From positions 1 to 64,000 of the forward strand of contig JAKPTZ010000064.1 of assembly GCA_029555025.1 (NCBI GenBank): DNA of 64,000 nt. The letters run 5' to 3'. A program made the position numbers and the translations under genes. Below the pieces are notes generated by a model that saw only the letters and a list, made by a program, of their open reading frames with translations, had not been told where the DNA came from and did not search any database. Source of the DNA: Deltaproteobacteria bacterium. GTDB lineage: Bacteria; Myxococcota_A; UBA9042; DTJE01. Positions 2,478-60,000 of this stretch are shown here, in pieces; position 1 is the stretch's first letter; each line of letters starts with the position of its first letter.

Positions 2478-5093
2478 ATGAGGGCATTTCTTGCGACAGC
2501 TTTCCTGGCGGCGATCTTTCCCGCGGCCGCGGCCGCAATCCCGGCCGAGGCCACGTTCAACATCGTGGTCGAGGCACACTGCGTCAGCAATGCAACGGTT
2601 TGCGGGTACGGCACGGAACCCCTCTTCGAAAGGGCCACCCGGCAATCCATTTTCGACCTGAACAACTATTGGCGCCCCACCGGCTTCTCTTTTCGCCTGA
2701 AGGAAATCAATTACCACTATGGCGATGATTATTCCGAAATTACCGGTCCTGAGAATACCGCGACTGCACCGGATAACCTGACCAAACTGAACGAACTGCG
2801 GTCGAAGGCATCAAAAAATCCGTCGGACGTCTATTGGTTTGTACTGGACAGCATGAGCGGCGGCTGTTTTTCCGGCGTCCCGGGCACTCACATGGGGCGC
2901 ACCCCGGATCCCAAGGCTCCGGATGAGTACTACGGAGTTTTCTGCACCGGCGTTGACGGCAACACAATGGCGCACGAAATCGGTCACCATTTCTGCCTGG
3001 CGCATCCGTTCAGTCACCAGGATCCGGCATCGCCGGCCGCCGGTGTCAACCACGACGGGGATGGGATTGCGGATACGCCGGAAGACCCGGGTGAATTCGA
3101 ATACTGCGACGTCAATGGAACGCAGGACAAGAAAGCGGAGGTCGATGGGGTTTTCCCGGTCAATACAAACTGTGTCGCCGATGCCGAATCCTGCGCGACC
3201 CAGATTAACGACAACCGTGACTGGTGCGGATACTCGCAGGTCGCGGCCGATGCCGGCAGCTTCATGCCGTTCCACTGTACGTCGGCCTGTCTTCGCAAGT
3301 CCGGCGGTACGATTTCCTCGATCAGCTACTCGCCGACCATGTCGCTGACGATGTCTTATTACTTCCGCCCATGCGGGGGGCCATACGTATATCTCGGCCA
3401 GGCGCATGAAGGCTTCAGTCCCGGTGAAGTCGCGGTGATGCGCTCATGCTACTTCGACGGTAACGAACGCGGCCAGCTTGTCAACCGGTGCGCCGGCGAC
3501 ACGGATACAGACTGGGATGGAATCTGCGACAAGAAGGATCCATGCCCGGCAAACCGCGCTTCGGTATGGGACGCCGACTCAGATAACGACGGAATCCCCG
3601 ACGTCTGCGATTCGTGCAAATTCGTTGACAACCTGGGTATCGATACGGACGGTGATGGCGTTGACAACGCATGCGACCCGAACGACGACAACGACGCATG
3701 CCCGGATGACATCGACGATAATCCGACCAGTGCAACGATGCAAATCGGAACGGTTCAGATGCCCGGATGCAACACCACGACCCACCCCGTCATCGTTTCC
3801 GAAAGCGGCAATTACGACAATGACGACGAATTGGATTGCCAGGACGACGACGACGACAATGACGGCATTCCAGACACCGAGGATCCGTGCCCGCACCTTG
3901 CCGACAGCGAGTTGTGCATAATTCCTGGACAAGGCTGCGCGCTTGAAACCCCCTGGGAAGAGTGCATGGGCGGGGGATGCCAGTTTGACCTGCTGGCGGA
4001 ACTGGAGTCCCTGCGGAATCCAGACGATCCAAGGCAGAGATTCGGCGCCGTCATCATGGACGAACGCGTCTATCTGATGCCGAGGGTCGGGCACACCGCC
4101 GGCGAACTCCGTGGAGCCTTGACCGGTAAGAGCTTCGGACTTGTCGAGGGTGGCGAGAAATTGAAGTTGAGCCTGGTAAACAGGGAATCCGGGGATCTGG
4201 TTGCGGAAGTCGGAACATTCAGGATCGCGGACGTCTCACTGGTGGGCGGGCAGACTGGTTCGGTACTGGGAATCGCTTACAAGGGACTTGCCAACGTCGC
4301 CGTTGACATGACTGGGAAACGCGCGGCCAACCGTGAGGGCGAAACATTGATTAAGCTGGAGGTTGGCCTGACGCATGGACTTGGCGTCCCACCGGGAGAC
4401 TCGCAGCCCGACTTCGATGAAGATGGTGTGCCCGACAGCGCCGACAACTGCCAGATGGTGGCCAACCCGGCGCAGCAGGACATCGATGGCGACCGGTTCG
4501 GCGACGCATGCGACCCCGACATCGACAACGACGGATTCGTGGGCCAGAACGACATCCAGGCCATTGGGGACTGCGTCGGGGTGAAGGTCAGGCCGGACGT
4601 TCACTTCCTGGAGCCCGGACAGTTCATTCCGGATGGCCACGACCCGGTGGCGGCACATGTGGGGGCTTTTTCCTGCCGAAAGGCCGACCTGGACGGCGAT
4701 GGAATCGTAAGCCAGGCCGAAGGAACTTACGCCTTAAACAACGAGGGCCTTACCGCTGGACCGTCGGCCTTCAAGCAGACCGCACCGGTTGAACCACCGG
4801 TTGACCCCGCACCGGAATCTGTGGTCGCGGACTCGGGCTCGGACAGCGGCATGATGGCGGACGTATTGGATGACGTTGGCACGGCCGACGCGAACATAAT
4901 GGACACTTTGGCCGGCGACATCGAATCGCAGGACAACGGTTCCACGGGCAAGTCCGGCGGATGCAGCGCCACGGACGGCCTGGCGGGAAGCGGTGGGGTG
5001 CCCGGGAAATCCGCGCTGCCCCTGGCCCTTCTGCTGATGATCCTTGTTTCCGCATTCGGAACCGCCAGGTTGACGTTCAGGAAGTCCCGCTGA
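2478..5093 (+). CDS. Secreted M43-type metalloprotease with TSP3 repeats and MYXO-CTERM-like tail
   Basis: An 871-residue secreted protein with an N-terminal signal peptide (MRAFLATAFLAAIFPAAAAA). The zinc site is HEIGHHFCLAH at residues 166-176. It is followed by NHDGDGIADTPEDPG and, further on, MSLTMSYY plus FSPGEVAVM, the order seen in M43 (pappalysin/cytophagalysin) proteases, with the latter as Met-turn. The usual Gly of HExxHxxGxxH is Cys here. Residues about 335-480 are calcium-binding thrombospondin type 3 repeats (DTDGDGVDNACDPNDDND). Near residue 640 there is another DxDxD block with a dockerin-like pair (DIDNDGFVGQNDIQ, DLDGDGIVSQAEG). The tail from residue 827 is GGCS, a linker, a hydrophobic helix and RLTFRKSR, like MYXO-CTERM sorting signals. 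Start ATG follows a G-rich site. Cell-surface anchoring is inferred. Confidence 0.82.
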   Translation: MRAFLATAFLAAIFPAAAAAIPAEATFNIVVEAHCVSNATVCGYGTEPLFERATRQSIFDLNNYWRPTGFSFRLKEINYHYGDDYSEITGPENTATAPDNLTKLNELRSKASKNPSDVYWFVLDSMSGGCFSGVPGTHMGRTPDPKAPDEYYGVFCTGVDGNTMAHEIGHHFCLAHPFSHQDPASPAAGVNHDGDGIADTPEDPGEFEYCDVNGTQDKKAEVDGVFPVNTNCVADAESCATQINDNRDWCGYSQVAADAGSFMPFHCTSACLRKSGGTISSISYSPTMSLTMSYYFRPCGGPYVYLGQAHEGFSPGEVAVMRSCYFDGNERGQLVNRCAGDTDTDWDGICDKKDPCPANRASVWDADSDNDGIPDVCDSCKFVDNLGIDTDGDGVDNACDPNDDNDACPDDIDDNPTSATMQIGTVQMPGCNTTTHPVIVSESGNYDNDDELDCQDDDDDNDGIPDTEDPCPHLADSELCIIPGQGCALETPWEECMGGGCQFDLLAELESLRNPDDPRQRFGAVIMDERVYLMPRVGHTAGELRGALTGKSFGLVEGGEKLKLSLVNRESGDLVAEVGTFRIADVSLVGGQTGSVLGIAYKGLANVAVDMTGKRAANREGETLIKLEVGLTHGLGVPPGDSQPDFDEDGVPDSADNCQMVANPAQQDIDGDRFGDACDPDIDNDGFVGQNDIQAIGDCVGVKVRPDVHFLEPGQFIPDGHDPVAAHVGAFSCRKADLDGDGIVSQAEGTYALNNEGLTAGPSAFKQTAPVEPPVDPAPESVVADSGSDSGMMADVLDDVGTADANIMDTLAGDIESQDNGSTGKSGGCSATDGLAGSGGVPGKSALPLALLLMILVSAFGTARLTFRKSR

Positions 5094-14431: not shown

Positions 14432-15160
14432 CTAAATCGGGGGCGTCCTTAAATGGAACTGCTGAACAAGCGCCAGCGCGATATTGCACAGCGCGTGAAA
14501 GATGGCCGGCGCAGCGACAGATCCCGTGCGCTCCCGCAGATAGCCGAACAGCAGCCCGGGAAAGAACACCGCCAGCCTCGCCGGCGACGGGGTGACAACA
14601 AGATGGGAAACGGCGAACAAGGCTGCCGTGATCACGACATGAAGACCGACATCGGCGCCAAAAACGCGGAATCTGGTCTTGAAAACGATGCCCAGTCGCG
14701 ACTGCATCCAGCCGCGATAAAACACCTCTTCCGGCAGAGCGACCGCGAAGACCTGAACGAAAACCAGGTTCACCAGCCATGCCGCGGAAATGACCGGGGC
14801 CTTCGAATACGCGGCCAGCAACCTGCCCGGGAGTTCACCGGAAAGCTTCAGCCACACATCATAGCCGACAACGAAAAGCGGAAAAACCACGATGGAAGCA
14901 ATGCCGACTGCCGCCAGCGCCCTGCCCCAGTGCATGCGGCCAAGGCCCATCGCTTCAAGCGTCACGCCACGCCGGCCCGCCGCGACGACAGGAAAGATCA
15001 GGCAGAAGGCTGGCGGAAGCGAACCGCCGATATCGCCGGCAAAATTCCCGACGGCGACAAGGATTGAACCGATGTATAGCAGGATTGCCAGAACGATGAA
15101 CCAGGCGCCGACTTCCAGGATGATACCCCTGGGCTCCGGAAGGTCAGAAGGCTTGCTCAT
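14432..15160 (-). CDS. CPBP-family intramembrane protease (myxosortase candidate)
   Basis: A 242-residue polytopic membrane protein with the three CPBP/ABI glutamic-protease motifs: EEVFYRG (E144, E145, R149), FAVSH (H186) and FHALCN (H222, N226). CPBP enzymes cleave substrates within the membrane, as Rce1 does. Some bacterial members, the myxosortases, process C-terminal MYXO-CTERM signals that carry an invariant Cys. Two such tails occur in this window (ends of the genes at 2478 and 17871), which makes that role possible but unproven. The start overlaps the preceding CvpA-like gene by four bases (ATGA). Other CPBP roles, such as prenyl-protein processing or bacteriocin immunity, cannot be excluded. 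Confidence 0.85.
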   Translation of the reverse strand: MSKPSDLPEPRGIILEVGAWFIVLAILLYIGSILVAVGNFAGDIGGSLPPAFCLIFPVVAAGRRGVTLEAMGLGRMHWGRALAAVGIASIVVFPLFVVGYDVWLKLSGELPGRLLAAYSKAPVISAAWLVNLVFVQVFAVALPEEVFYRGWMQSRLGIVFKTRFRVFGADVGLHVVITAALFAVSHLVVTPSPARLAVFFPGLLFGYLRERTGSVAAPAIFHALCNIALALVQQFHLRTPPI

Positions 15161-15345
15161 TCAACCTTATCCCCGACCTTGTCCGCCGCATCCTTAACCT
15201 TGTCTCCGGCCTTGTCCGCGGCGTTCCTGACCTTGTCGCCGACCTTACCTGCGGCGTCCTCGACCTTTTCACCGGCATCCGAGGCCGCGCCTTCGACCTT
15301 GTCCGCCACGATGCCGGCAGCATCCTCGACCTTATCCGTCGCCTT
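15157..15345 (-). repeat. 33-base repeats encoding LEA-like 11-mers
   Basis: About five imperfect units of 33 bases code for DKVxDAAGxVG-type 11-mers at the C terminus of the CvpA-like protein. They are coding repeats, not a CRISPR array: there are no unique spacers and the reading frame runs through. Confidence 0.75.
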
Positions 15346-15954
15346 CCCAACGCCTTCGCCAACGGTCTCTTTCAGTTTTCCGGCTTGATCCATCGCCTTT
15401 CCCGTCAGTTCCTGAACCTCGCGGGCAGCGTCGTCGGCCATCTGGCGGATATGAACCTTCATTTCCTCGACCTGCGCGGGGTCCCTGACCGTAAGCCCCT
15501 TGACCGGGTGATCCTGAACGAACTTCACGAACACCGACTTTTCAGCATCCATGACGACCATCTTCCGCCCGGAGCCGGCCTGCGCCGCAAGGGCCACCGC
15601 CACGATAAACCATGCCAGCAGCAGGCCGTTCGCCGCGCCAAGAATCCCGCCGATCAGGCGACTTGGCACGGAAATCCTGGCCGCCGCCGGAGATGCCGCG
15701 TTAAGGATGACCTTTATTATCAATATCATCAGCATGTACAGGACGGCGAAAAGCATGACTGGAAGGCCGTATTCCCTCAACATCATTGACTTCGCAAACA
15801 CGGGCACCGAATCCGCGATGACCGGCGAATACTTCAGCGCGACGTAAATCGAAACCCCTGATGCGACAAGGCGCAACGACTGCAGCAGGGTTCCCGCGAC
15901 CAGGCCAAGAATCCCGAAAAACAGAACCAGCCCGACAGCCATGTAGTCAATCAT
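15157..15954 (-). CDS. CvpA-like membrane protein with LEA-like repeat tail
   Basis: A 265-residue protein. Residues 1 to about 130 look like the CvpA domain: four membrane helices beginning MIDYMAVGLVLFFGILGLVAG and ending in a helix with GGILGAANGLLLAWFIVAVAL. The second half is a charged amphipathic coil. From about residue 190 it consists of 11-residue repeats of the type (A)DKVxDAAGxVG, as in LEA/apolipoprotein-like helices, visible at DNA level as 33-base periodicity. CvpA proteins are inner-membrane proteins tied to colicin V export and envelope stress; a repeat tail of this kind is unusual. The frame overlaps the CPBP gene by four bases, so the two are probably made together. Confidence 0.72.
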   Translation of the reverse strand: MIDYMAVGLVLFFGILGLVAGTLLQSLRLVASGVSIYVALKYSPVIADSVPVFAKSMMLREYGLPVMLFAVLYMLMILIIKVILNAASPAAARISVPSRLIGGILGAANGLLLAWFIVAVALAAQAGSGRKMVVMDAEKSVFVKFVQDHPVKGLTVRDPAQVEEMKVHIRQMADDAAREVQELTGKAMDQAGKLKETVGEGVGKATDKVEDAAGIVADKVEGAASDAGEKVEDAAGKVGDKVRNAADKAGDKVKDAADKVGDKVE

Positions 15955-17870: not shown

Positions 17871-19961
17871 TCAATTGCGGTCGATGATTGACTTGCGGAA
17901 CCTGCGGCCGGCCAGCGCCAGCCCGACAAGTATGAACACGGCGACAAGCGGGGCCGGGTCGCGACCGCCGCCGGAACCGGCCGAGCATCCACCATCGGGA
18001 ACTTCAGCCGCAGTCCTTATGCAGAATTTGCCGGCATCGCGAACCTGGGTGCACTCGAAGCCTTCCGGACACCAGTCATCGACGCACTGCTGGCTGCAGT
18101 AAAGATCATCCTTCGGTCCAAGGCAAAGACCCGAAACACATTCGCTTCCAACCTGGCACGAGTCCCCGACTTCACCGCGATCATCAACCGGCATGCAGAC
18201 GCCCGAATCGACCGCGTCGAAACCGACGCAGGCAGTCCCCGGGGTCGGGCAGAACCAGTCGGCAAGGTCACACTCGACGCGGCAGCGCTTCGTATCCGCG
18301 GCCGTCGGCTGGAAACACAGTCCGCTGCGGCATTCGTCGTCGGAACTGCAGACGTCACCTTCTTCAAGAAGATCCACCGGCGGCTCGCCAGGCAGGCATG
18401 CCCCGGCCGAAAGCTCGGTTTCACAATACCAGCCGTCCGCACAATTGGCGGAGGTTCCACAAGCTTCCCGGCACCGCTTTCCGTCGCTTCCCTGCAAACA
18501 CAGGCCAGTCCTGCAAAACGAAGGAAGCGAACATTCATCCCCGACCTCGAGAGTCGGCTCGACCGGCTCCTGACCAGGCAGACAGGTACTGGACTGTTCA
18601 TCGCAAACGAACCCTTCGCCGCACTTGTCACTGTCCGTGCAGACCAGCCTGCAACGCATTCCATCGTCGCCAAACACGCACTTGCCGCTTTCGCACTGAT
18701 CCCCGGCGGTGCAGTACTCGCCGGTTCCCTTCAGCACAACCTCAACTTCCGGAAAGCAGCCGCCGTAAGTTCCCTTAAACCAGCAGTACTCGCCATCGGG
18801 GCATTCCTTATCGCTGCGGCACATTATCCGACATGACCTCACGCCGTCCGGCCACGTGTCGCACTTGCCCTCGACGCAGTCATCAATGGTCGAACAACGA
18901 CTTCCAATACCGCCGGCCTTGCTGCCGGTCACGCAGATATCCTGCCCGCCCATCGTCTCGCAGTGGTATCCCGAGGGACACAAATCGTTCGCCAGGCTGC
19001 ACTCCTCGGTACATCGCGGCTTGCCGTCGCCGATGTCGGTGCAGATGCCGCCCTTGCAGGCAACATCGTTCTGACAAATCACACCCTGAAGAGTGGTTCC
19101 GGGCTGGCTTCCATACAACCCGATGCAGTATCCACCCGCACAGGAAAGCCGACCGTTGTTGAAATTTTCGTAATCATAGACTTCCTCACCCTTGGAATTG
19201 TGGGTCACAATCCGTGGGCAGTCGGACACTGAAGCGCACTTGTAAAGGCCCTTGTTACCGGCATAGTAGGACTGATCCGGATAAAGGAAGCAGGCGGCCA
19301 GTTCGTCGTCGGCGTTCAGCGTGTCGCCAAGGCCGTAATAATCGACGTAAGGGGCCATCGTGGCCGGATCGTTTTCGTTGTATTCCGACCAGTCGAGACA
19401 CGAATGCTGGACTCCGAAGAAATGACCAATTTCGTGGATGGCGACGGACTTGAAACTGACCTCGCCCCAGCCGAGATCATTCTTGTTGACCGCCCACTTG
19501 CCGTTGTAGTCACAGTTGTTGAAAGCGATGTCCGATTCGTAAATTTCACCAGTGAAGTAGTCCTGCATGGGCAACGTGACGCCAAGTGTCGAAGACCCGA
19601 AATTCCACTTCCTGCATTCCGTGCTGCCCGTAACCCATACAAGTTCATTCTTTCCGTTTACGGTGCCGGTAATCGGCAGGATGTCCTGACTGCTCGAATT
19701 GCCGAGCATCTGGAAAGTCAGGGCACTGCAATCGATATCCTCCCAGTCCTGGAAGGAAGATGTCATCGCATTCTGGGACGCGGTGGCCGAAACACCGGTA
19801 ACGCCACGGCTGTCAACGTAATAAGTCAGATCCCACATCGCCCATCGGGACATATTCTTGTGGCTGTCGTCCATATAGGCCGTCTGGACGGAAAACGCAC
19901 GGGCCACGAGTGGAAGCAACAAAACGGCAATAGCGAGAACGGCTGGAATGCGCGCTTTCAT
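17871..19961 (-). CDS. Secreted matrixin-like metalloprotease with Cys-rich modules and MYXO-CTERM-like tail
   Basis: A 696-residue secreted zinc protease with a signal peptide (residues 1-22). The metzincin site HEIGHFFGVQH is at residues 176-186, with a Met-turn candidate in ATMAPYVDYYG about 20 residues later. Residues about 260-650 hold five to six Cys-rich modules of roughly 50 residues of the form C..DDC..G.C....G...C...C, likely protein- or matrix-binding. The tail from residue 657 is GGCS, a Gly-rich linker, the helix LVAVFILVGLALAG and RRFRKS, a MYXO-CTERM-like sorting signal with Cys659 as the invariant residue. The start overlaps the upstream gene by four bases (ATGA), so the pair is coupled. 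Confidence 0.88.
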   Translation of the reverse strand: MKARIPAVLAIAVLLLPLVARAFSVQTAYMDDSHKNMSRWAMWDLTYYVDSRGVTGVSATASQNAMTSSFQDWEDIDCSALTFQMLGNSSSQDILPITGTVNGKNELVWVTGSTECRKWNFGSSTLGVTLPMQDYFTGEIYESDIAFNNCDYNGKWAVNKNDLGWGEVSFKSVAIHEIGHFFGVQHSCLDWSEYNENDPATMAPYVDYYGLGDTLNADDELAACFLYPDQSYYAGNKGLYKCASVSDCPRIVTHNSKGEEVYDYENFNNGRLSCAGGYCIGLYGSQPGTTLQGVICQNDVACKGGICTDIGDGKPRCTEECSLANDLCPSGYHCETMGGQDICVTGSKAGGIGSRCSTIDDCVEGKCDTWPDGVRSCRIMCRSDKECPDGEYCWFKGTYGGCFPEVEVVLKGTGEYCTAGDQCESGKCVFGDDGMRCRLVCTDSDKCGEGFVCDEQSSTCLPGQEPVEPTLEVGDECSLPSFCRTGLCLQGSDGKRCREACGTSANCADGWYCETELSAGACLPGEPPVDLLEEGDVCSSDDECRSGLCFQPTAADTKRCRVECDLADWFCPTPGTACVGFDAVDSGVCMPVDDRGEVGDSCQVGSECVSGLCLGPKDDLYCSQQCVDDWCPEGFECTQVRDAGKFCIRTAAEVPDGGCSAGSGGGRDPAPLVAVFILVGLALAGRRFRKSIIDRN

Positions 19962-57694: not shown

Positions 57695-58741
57695 TCAATT
57701 ATGGCCGAATAGCGACATAAGGCGGTAAATACCCCACCCGAAAAGGCCGGAAGCCGGAATCGTGAACAGCCAGGCCCACAGGATCTTCCTGGCGAGGATC
57801 CATCTTACGCTGCGCAGGCCGCCCACCATCCCGACCCCGATGATGGCGCCGGTTATCGTGTGGGTGGTTGAGACCGGAATTCCCAGGAAGCTGACGCCAA
57901 GGATTGTCACGCCGCCGCCGGTTTCGGCTGAGAATCCGTGCATCGGATCCAGTTTTGTCAGCCTGGTTCCCATCGTCTTGACGATTCGAAGTCCGCCGGA
58001 AAGCGTCCCGGCCGCGATCGCCGCGTAGCAGAGAACCTCGATCCACAGGGGAATGGAGTCGGGGTGAACCGGGTCGTGTCCCCAGACATTGCCCGGAATG
58101 CCGGATGCCAGAAGAAGAGCGAAGATGATTCCCATCGTCTTCTGGGCGTCGTTCGACCCATGGCTGAAGGAATACACGGCCGAGGAAAGAAGCTGAAGCT
58201 TTCGAAACAGCGGGTACAACTTGCCTGGCGGCATCTTGCGCACAATCCACGTCACGATGATCTGGTTTGCCATGCCAAGGATCATTCCGATAATCGGGGC
58301 GATGACGATGAAGGCAGCAATCTTCCCGATACCGGCCAGCTTCAATGCTTCAATGCCGCTTCGGGCAAGCGCCGCGCCGGCATAACCGCCGACAAGTGCA
58401 TGCGATGATGACGAAGGGAGGCCGAACCACCATGTGATCAAGTTCCACACGATCGCGCCCGTCAACCCCGAAAAGATGACTGCGGTCGTGACGTACGAAA
58501 GATCGACGACATCCTTGCCCACCATCTTGGCAACTGCGGTTCCGACCACAAAAAGCGCCGCGAAATTGAAGAAGGCCGCCCAGGCGACTGCGAATCGCGG
58601 ACTCAGTACCCGGGTGGCCACAACCGTGGCGATCGAATTCGCGGCGTCGTGGAAACCGTTGACGTAGTCAAACGCAATGGCAGCAATAAGCGTAATAATT
58701 ACAAGAGGATCAACATGCTGGAATATGCTGGCGAAATCCAC
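57695..58741 (-). CDS. PiT-type inorganic phosphate transporter (copy 1)
   Basis: A 348-residue secondary transporter with two PiT signature halves: AFDYVNGFHDAANSIATVVATRVLSPRFAV and YSFSHGSNDAQKTMGIIFALLLA. Start is GTG at 58741 with GAGGT upstream. It lies 104 bases downstream of the closely related copy 2 and may share its operon with the DUF47 gene. Confidence 0.95.
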   Translation of the reverse strand: MDFASIFQHVDPLVIITLIAAIAFDYVNGFHDAANSIATVVATRVLSPRFAVAWAAFFNFAALFVVGTAVAKMVGKDVVDLSYVTTAVIFSGLTGAIVWNLITWWFGLPSSSSHALVGGYAGAALARSGIEALKLAGIGKIAAFIVIAPIIGMILGMANQIIVTWIVRKMPPGKLYPLFRKLQLLSSAVYSFSHGSNDAQKTMGIIFALLLASGIPGNVWGHDPVHPDSIPLWIEVLCYAAIAAGTLSGGLRIVKTMGTRLTKLDPMHGFSAETGGGVTILGVSFLGIPVSTTHTITGAIIGVGMVGGLRSVRWILARKILWAWLFTIPASGLFGWGIYRLMSLFGHN

Positions 58742-58845: not shown

Positions 58846-59892
58846 CTAGCCCTGACCCAGCATCGCCATCAGCCTGAACGTCAGCCAACCGAAAAGGCCG
58901 GCCATCGGCACCGTGAAGATCCAGGCCCAGACAATCTTTTTCGCCATTATCCAGCGAACGCTGCGCAAGCCACTTACAGTCCCGACGCCGATGATCGCGC
59001 CGGTTATCGTGTGGGTGGTTGAAACCGGAATGCCCAGGGCGCTGACGGCCAGAATCGTGACACCGCCGCCTGTCTCGGCGCAGAAGCCGTGCATCGGGTC
59101 GAGCTTCGTCAATTTGCTTCCCATGGTCTTGACGATCCTGAATCCGCCGAACAGCGTGCCGAAGGCGATGAAGGCATGGCAGATAAGGATTATCCAGACA
59201 GGGATATGCTCTGGATTCGTCGGATCCTGGTACCACATGGCCGGCGGCAGACCGGAAGCAACCAGCAGCGCGAAAATTATGCCCATGGTCTTCTGTGCGT
59301 CATTCGAGCCGTGGCTGAACGAGTAAATCGCGGCCGACAGGAGCTGCAGCTTGCGGAAAATCGGGAACAGCTTTCCCGGTGGCTGCCGCCGGACAATCCA
59401 CATCACGATTATCTGGTTCAGCATCCCCAGCATCATCCCAACCATCGGGGCAATCACGATGAACGCGGCAATCTTGGCAAGCCCGGCGAACTTCAGCGCC
59501 GCAATCCCGCTTTTTGCAAGGGCCGCGCCGGCATACCCGCCGACCAGCGCGTGCGACGACGACGATGGCAGCCCGAGCCACCACGTGATCAGATTCCAGA
59601 TAATCGCGCCCATCAGACCGGCGAAGACGACCGGGACTGTAACAAAGGAAAGATCGACGACGTCCTTTCCAACCATCTTTGCAACGGCGGTTCCGAAGGT
59701 GAACGCCGCGACGAAATTAAAGAATGCAGCCCATGCGACCGCAAACTTAGGACTCAGGACACGGGTTGCTACAACGGTTGCAATCGAGTTGGCCGCATCG
59801 TGAAATCCGTTGACGAAATCGAACGCCAACGCCGCGACAAGCGTTATCACAATCAATGGTTCAACGTTGGTCAACGCTTCCAGAAACTGCAT
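58846..59892 (-). CDS. PiT-type inorganic phosphate transporter (copy 2)
   Basis: A 348-residue paralogue of copy 1 with the same halves (AFDFVNGFHDAANSIATVV and YSFSHGSNDAQKTMG). The ATG at 59892 has GGAGG six bases upstream. The two copies clearly arose by tandem duplication but have diverged, most at the N and C termini and in the loop before GLRSVRWI. Confidence 0.95.
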   Translation of the reverse strand: MQFLEALTNVEPLIVITLVAALAFDFVNGFHDAANSIATVVATRVLSPKFAVAWAAFFNFVAAFTFGTAVAKMVGKDVVDLSFVTVPVVFAGLMGAIIWNLITWWLGLPSSSSHALVGGYAGAALAKSGIAALKFAGLAKIAAFIVIAPMVGMMLGMLNQIIVMWIVRRQPPGKLFPIFRKLQLLSAAIYSFSHGSNDAQKTMGIIFALLVASGLPPAMWYQDPTNPEHIPVWIILICHAFIAFGTLFGGFRIVKTMGSKLTKLDPMHGFCAETGGGVTILAVSALGIPVSTTHTITGAIIGVGTVSGLRSVRWIMAKKIVWAWIFTVPMAGLFGWLTFRLMAMLGQG

Positions 59893-60000
59893 CCGCAACC
59901 TCCGCCGCGGTCATCCAGACGACCGCGGAAAACCGGACACACCAGCCCGTTCACGTTATCACGCTCAAATTAACGCCACGGGACAGGGATATTTGCCGTA

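Follow-up and report, generated by a model that had tools for sequence, protein, structure and literature searches.

In a 64,000-nucleotide stretch of DNA (the window) from a Deltaproteobacteria bacterium (genome G000; 3.49 Mb, 97.6% complete), we identified a CPBP intramembrane protease gene that, judging from its sequence, very probably encodes the myxosortase of this bacterium, an enzyme predicted to trim the tails of about 30 secreted proteins for surface display. The pathway is known from Myxococcus, and the window gene adds a further member to it and no new kind of system. The enzyme family, the active-site residues, the sole candidate, the substrate set and a type II secretin are established by the data below, and for this small genome with one myxosortase the same data yield 30 proteins predicted to reach the cell surface. 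The features assigned in the window are listed in Table 1.

Table 1 Window features, with positions, strands and the basis of each assignment.
Feature	Position	Strand	Basis
Predicted myxosortase, an MrtP-like CPBP intramembrane glutamic protease lacking the long loop	14432..15160	minus	242 aa, Mrt_core
cvpA-like gene (Colicin_V, PF02674) with helical C-terminal extension	15157..15954	minus	48.5 bits, cut-off 29.3
Secreted metalloprotease of matrixin type, predicted substrate bearing a MYXO-CTERM tail	17871..19961	minus	PF00413 35.5 bits, cut-off 24
Sorting tail GGCS-helix-RRFRK of the matrixin	17874..18008	minus	tail alignment
Secreted metzincin-like protein, predicted substrate bearing a GGCS tail and thrombospondin type 3 repeats	2478..5093	plus	PF02412 41.9 bits
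Sorting tail GGCS-helix-RLTFRKSR of the 2478-5093 protein	4956..5090	plus	tail alignment

Assignment of the CPBP protein

Translation of the gene on the plus strand meets stop codons, and the open frame of 242 residues lies on the minus strand. In an NCBIfam scan, the encoded protein passed the Mrt_core model (NF040914) with 130.8 bits at a cut-off of 100, and it was the sole match over this cut-off in the genome (133.4 bits in the genome search; 13.5 bits for the runner-up place). The best-scoring NCBIfam family was MrtP (NF040674; 187 bits, E 6e-55, cut-off 250), and lower scores were obtained with MrtC (NF040594; 148.5 bits, cut-off 195), MrtX (NF040593; 125.1 bits, cut-off 180), MrtZ (90.3 bits, cut-off 325), MrtS (87.1 bits, cut-off 130) and MrtJ (61.7 bits, cut-off 75). 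As far as these models can tell, the product is a myxosortase by its core that lies outside the cut-off of every subfamily model; of the comparison with the Mrt models foreseen in the initial annotation, the core match held and none of MrtX, MrtC and MrtP was passed.

The two findings that the initial annotation had named as speaking against a sorting role, a better match to Rce1-like or bacteriocin-immunity CPBP families and another myxosortase elsewhere in the genome, did not appear. The specific Mrt models far outscore the general CPBP models, and the Pfam match, at 62 bits, is to the Rce1-like family PF02517, an umbrella for CPBP proteins in general and no competing assignment. The genome encodes four further CPBP proteins, all of them far below Mrt_core and none over any myxosortase cut-off; one of these (L032, G000 C15:124228-124488) shows a weak likeness to the archaeomyxosortase model MrtA (58.5 bits, cut-off 200). 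Among other sorting enzymes, exosortase (Exosortase_EpsH) gave zero matches in the genome at E up to 10, and rhombosortase gave none over the 84-bit cut-off, with two weak rhomboid matches at 26 and 23.3 bits.

The CPBP signature EExxxR, H, HxxxN is present, and no catalytic residue is missing: the motif PEEVFYRG supplies E144, E145 and R149, and HALCN supplies H222 and N226, with H186 between the two motifs, as the first reading of the EE/H/HN residues had it, with the minus strand now assigned. All six residues are invariant across 11/11 aligned relatives. The spacing from the first Glu to the two His and the Asn is 42, 78 and 82 residues, near-identical to the 42, 77 and 81 of Myxococcus xanthus MrtX (E146 to H188, H223 and N227), for which PMC11980579 gives the catalytic residues E146, E147, H188, H223 and N227. 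An AlphaFold2 model of the CPBP protein, made together with one relative, was too poor for use (mean pLDDT 44.2), and searches of solved-structure sequences with the protein and with alignment A1 returned nothing meaningful, the best match (E 0.077) being an unrelated synthase.

Sorting tails and their co-occurrence with the enzyme

A genome search with the MYXO-CTERM model TIGR03901 matched 24 places with E values of up to 10, and 11 of these exceed the cut-off, compared with an over-cut-off match in 0/14 control genomes, which places the tails beyond chance. In the frames behind these 24 places, 20 matches are C-terminal tails and 4 are internal; the tail of the 2478-5093 protein was absent from the matches and was found by inspection, giving 21 tails. 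When aligned, these show an invariant Cys and first Arg (21/21), a Gly preceding the Cys that is nearly so, and a helix whose sequence is free. A profile built on the 21 tails, that of the 2478-5093 protein included, found 32 places, namely the 21 training tails, 9 new ones and 2 weak ones, and all 9 new tails stand at frame ends with a Cys, a helix and basic residues. Leaving out the 2 weak places, the count of proteins ending in a Cys-helix-Arg tail comes to 30 in this genome, which provides the genome-wide list of GGC-helix-Arg proteins that had been proposed as a check.

Nearly all of these tails are GGCS-like, and they have the invariant Cys, the transmembrane helix and the Arg cluster at the extreme C-terminus; their 30 proteins are the predicted substrates of the myxosortase. 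The TIGR03901 cut-off is exceeded by 11/30 tails, most lying below it, and for a few the JDVT-CTERM or Synerg-CTERM models also return weak scores that stay under their cut-offs. In this lineage, therefore, the NCBIfam models under-call both the enzyme, which passes none of MrtX, MrtC and MrtP, and its tag.

The two secreted metalloproteases with a GGCS-helix-Arg tail that had been noticed in the window were borne out. The matrixin ends in GGCS...RRFRKSIIDRN and scores 21.9 bits against TIGR03901 in the genome search and 15.9 bits in a whole-protein scan (cut-off 20). The 2478-5093 protein contains the motif HEIGHHFCLAH, has a Reprolysin_5 match below cut-off (22.2 of 27 bits) and ends in SGGCS...RLTFRKSR. 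Both have, by eye, a signal-like N-terminus, and in a crude hydrophobicity test for signal peptides, a score of at least 2 close to a possible start was reached by 15/19 retrieved substrates and missed by 4/19.

A Pfam domain census, covering 21 of the 30 tailed proteins, found peptidases (two trypsins, a papain-type, an S15, an M23, a matrixin and an M12-like peptidase), other enzymes (two GH123 glycosidases, a lipase-like hydrolase and a calcineurin-like phosphoesterase) and EGF, PKD, CARDB and lectin-like domains; two proteins had no match. By these domains, the tailed proteins look like a surface set for digestion and adhesion, and the dominance of proteases, glycosidases and other hydrolases in the list suggests that cell-bound digestion is a main use of the pathway in this bacterium. 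Two of the tailed genes (G000 C76:76143-76435) converge, their tail matches being about 40 bases apart.

In a survey of 89 genomes of the phylum, 74 genomes have a match to the myxosortase core over its cut-off, and one or more tails over cut-off occur in 84. At a completeness of 94% or more, four or more tail matches (E up to 0.02) are present in 45/45 genomes with a myxosortase vs 1/8 without; for all 89 genomes, the figures are 73/74 vs 6/15 (Fisher p = 5e-8 and 7e-8, respectively, with independence overstated because the genomes are related). The sole enzyme-less exception at this completeness is G058 (15 tail matches, 94% complete). Altogether, 6 of the 15 genomes without an over-cut-off myxosortase have six or more tail matches, among them G058 and the only congener of the window genome, G001 (6 tail matches, no enzyme over cut-off, 86% complete). 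Assembly gaps may be the reason for enzyme-less genomes with tails; such exceptions count against a perfect enzyme-tail rule. Eight genomes in families f16, f20, f23 and f26 have 0 to 3 tail matches and no myxosortase over cut-off, which suggests that the pathway is missing, or almost missing, from whole lineages.

These results bear on two other explanations. The CPBP protein could be an intramembrane protease of general function whose targets are other proteins or short peptides, with a different enzyme cutting the tails; the umbrella PF02517 match, the four other CPBP proteins, one of them weakly MrtA-like, and the two weak rhomboid matches would agree with this, but the window protein alone passes Mrt_core, far ahead of the next place, the specific Mrt models score well above the general CPBP ones, and enzyme and tails co-occur, so that we consider such a general role very improbable. 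The GGCS tails could instead be plain C-terminal membrane anchors, or tags of another class, that remain unprocessed. A plain anchor needs no Cys, yet the Cys and first Arg are invariant while the helix sequence is free, and the same GGC(S/T/A) tails are found in related genomes with a myxosortase; although most tails score under the TIGR03901 cut-off and a few resemble JDVT-CTERM or Synerg-CTERM, this explanation appears more improbable still. We therefore retain a myxosortase acting on these tails as the preferred reading.

The long loop and the gene neighborhood

Among 44 myxosortases of the phylum, the stretch from the conserved W103 to E144 measures 29 to 66 residues in 20 and 132 to 190 residues in 24, the long form being the MrtP layout (model length 354). 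The window protein is without this loop of about 130 residues between hydrophobic segments 3 and 4, and it aligns to the MrtP model in two stretches with the loop region missing, which would explain why it falls short of the MrtP cut-off. Within its own family, 7/10 examined myxosortases have the long loop, and the short form also occurs in G002 and G008; across the phylum, the short form is spread over several families. A Pfam scan of three long-form proteins assigned no family to the loop. In a tree built without the loop, parsimony gives six changes of state, at least three of which are forced by well-supported branches. On this tree the window protein has the long-loop members of its family as weakly supported neighbors (85/63; L045 is the closest), and it lies outside a well-supported clade containing the two MrtC-type proteins. 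We infer that the window enzyme is probably an MrtP-type protein without the loop.

If the long loop of MrtP were essential for sorting, the short-loop window protein would have lost its function. The loop is present in more than half of the myxosortases examined and in most of those of its own family, as given above, but the active site of the window protein is intact, 30 tails have been retained in its genome, the 20 short forms occur in several families, and two loop-less proteins (L036 and L058) exceed the MrtC cut-off; we give a loss of function hardly any credence. A functional loop-less myxosortase is thus preferred, and the presence of both loop-bearing and loop-less enzymes in this family offers a natural comparison for tail recognition. 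No link between loop and tail type was found in the family: both forms have GGC(S/T/A) tails, with one GGCQ and one GGCR as exceptions (20 tails from 30 loci examined). The loops of L045, L048 and L052, long-form MrtP proteins of the family, contain a CxC motif (GCGCPA, GCACPA) resembling the MYXO-CTERM signature, and most loops of other families have no Cys.

The stop codon of the cvpA-like gene overlaps the myxosortase start (ATGA), and the myxosortase gene lies directly downstream of cvpA in 9/9 testable genomes of its family; in the tenth, G006, the upstream stretch is lost at a contig end. The CvpA profile found no such neighbor in 32 other neighborhoods examined, L033 included. The cvpA-myxosortase pair is family-specific, a modest addition alongside the loop-less MrtP-like form, and a role of CvpA in sorting is a guess. 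Clustering of other neighbors yielded mostly antisense frames and nothing usable besides the myxosortase. The 16109-17758 gene encodes a protein of 549 residues with no NCBIfam or Pfam match, a relative of which is encoded divergently beside cvpA-myxosortase in G002 and G008. Further along the window, the tandem transporter genes at 57695-58741 and 58846-59898, which we take to be PiT-like, are 76% identical over 347 residues.

The closeness of enzyme and substrates had been taken by the initial annotation as fitting a sorting pathway; the Mrt_core match and the 30 tails uphold the pathway, whereas the closeness itself is weak evidence, linkage being sporadic. The matrixin gene lies about 2.7 kb and the 2478-5093 gene about 9.3 kb from the CPBP gene. 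Poisson estimates, made post hoc with 21 tails, give a chance of about 0.007 for two or more tails within 10 kb either side and of about 0.06 for two or more per 64 kb. Among 42 neighborhoods examined, in 41 of which the myxosortase was recognized, tailed genes were found only in G000, G002, G011 and G038; a fifth automatic match, in G052, was rejected as not tail-like on reading. In G002 (L063 727-7014), the gene for a tailed protein of 2096 residues lies directly downstream of the myxosortase, and in G038 (L102 6563-7888), a tailed matrixin gene is convergent with it across a 3-base gap.

Predicted pathway and comparison with known systems

In the pathway that we propose, the approximately 30 proteins would be exported by Sec via their signal peptides and held in the inner membrane by the C-terminal helix, with the Arg residues on the cytoplasmic side. 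In a hypothetical step, the Cys of GGC(S/A/T) would receive a lipid, and the protease would cut distal to this Cys and free the helix, using E144/E145, H186 and the oxyanion pair H222/N226. The type II system would then carry the lipid-anchored protein across the outer membrane, leading to surface display. We infer the cleavage, the order of steps and the surface display by analogy with M. xanthus MrtX, for which PMC11980579 presents deletion and E. coli co-expression data, and where lipidation is likewise hypothetical.

The secretin GspD, the one type II component tested, was found at 497.8 bits (cut-off 351.35). Three genes of the LGT (lipoprotein diacylglyceryl transferase) family are present in G000 (C61:68734-69282, C114:97089-97805 and C103:23179-23970). 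Genomes of the phylum have between 0 and 7 such genes, with a median of 3 where a myxosortase is present vs 2 where it is not (one-sided p 0.04), and many genomes have an LGT whose Pfam match starts near position 71. A dedicated LGT paralogue as the lipidation enzyme was considered and dropped: co-occurrence singles none out, because 7/74 myxosortase genomes have a single LGT yet 6 to 49 tail matches.

A rather unlikely proposal is that the extra MrtP domain serves for docking at the outer face of the inner membrane, as a detachable module that has been acquired or lost on three or more occasions, and that in this family the translationally coupled CvpA works with the myxosortase as its partner in the membrane and takes part in substrate hand-over. 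If so, the loop-less window enzyme would be a natural deletion, and the module would be dispensable for single-Cys tails.

Among known enzymes, MrtP (NF040674) is the type of the nearest relatives in the window protein's family, one of which (L048) exceeds the cut-off with 287.9 bits; unlike the window protein, which stays under 250 bits, MrtP has the loop of about 130 residues. MrtC (NF040594) is a short form without the loop, like the window protein, which nevertheless scores under the 195-bit cut-off and falls outside the clade containing the two MrtC-type proteins. MrtX (MXAN_2755, NF040593; PMC11980579) is similar in length (239 vs 242 residues), has the same catalytic residues and comes from a genome that, like the window genome, encodes dozens of MYXO-CTERM-type proteins; its substrates carry a generic GCGC motif, or CC in TraA, whereas those predicted here carry one Cys in a GGCS-like motif. 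The window tails share with the MYXO-CTERM tag (TIGR03901) the signature Cys, the helix, the C-terminal Arg cluster and the placement on exported hydrolases and adhesins, but represent a single-Cys GGC(S/A/T) form of it.
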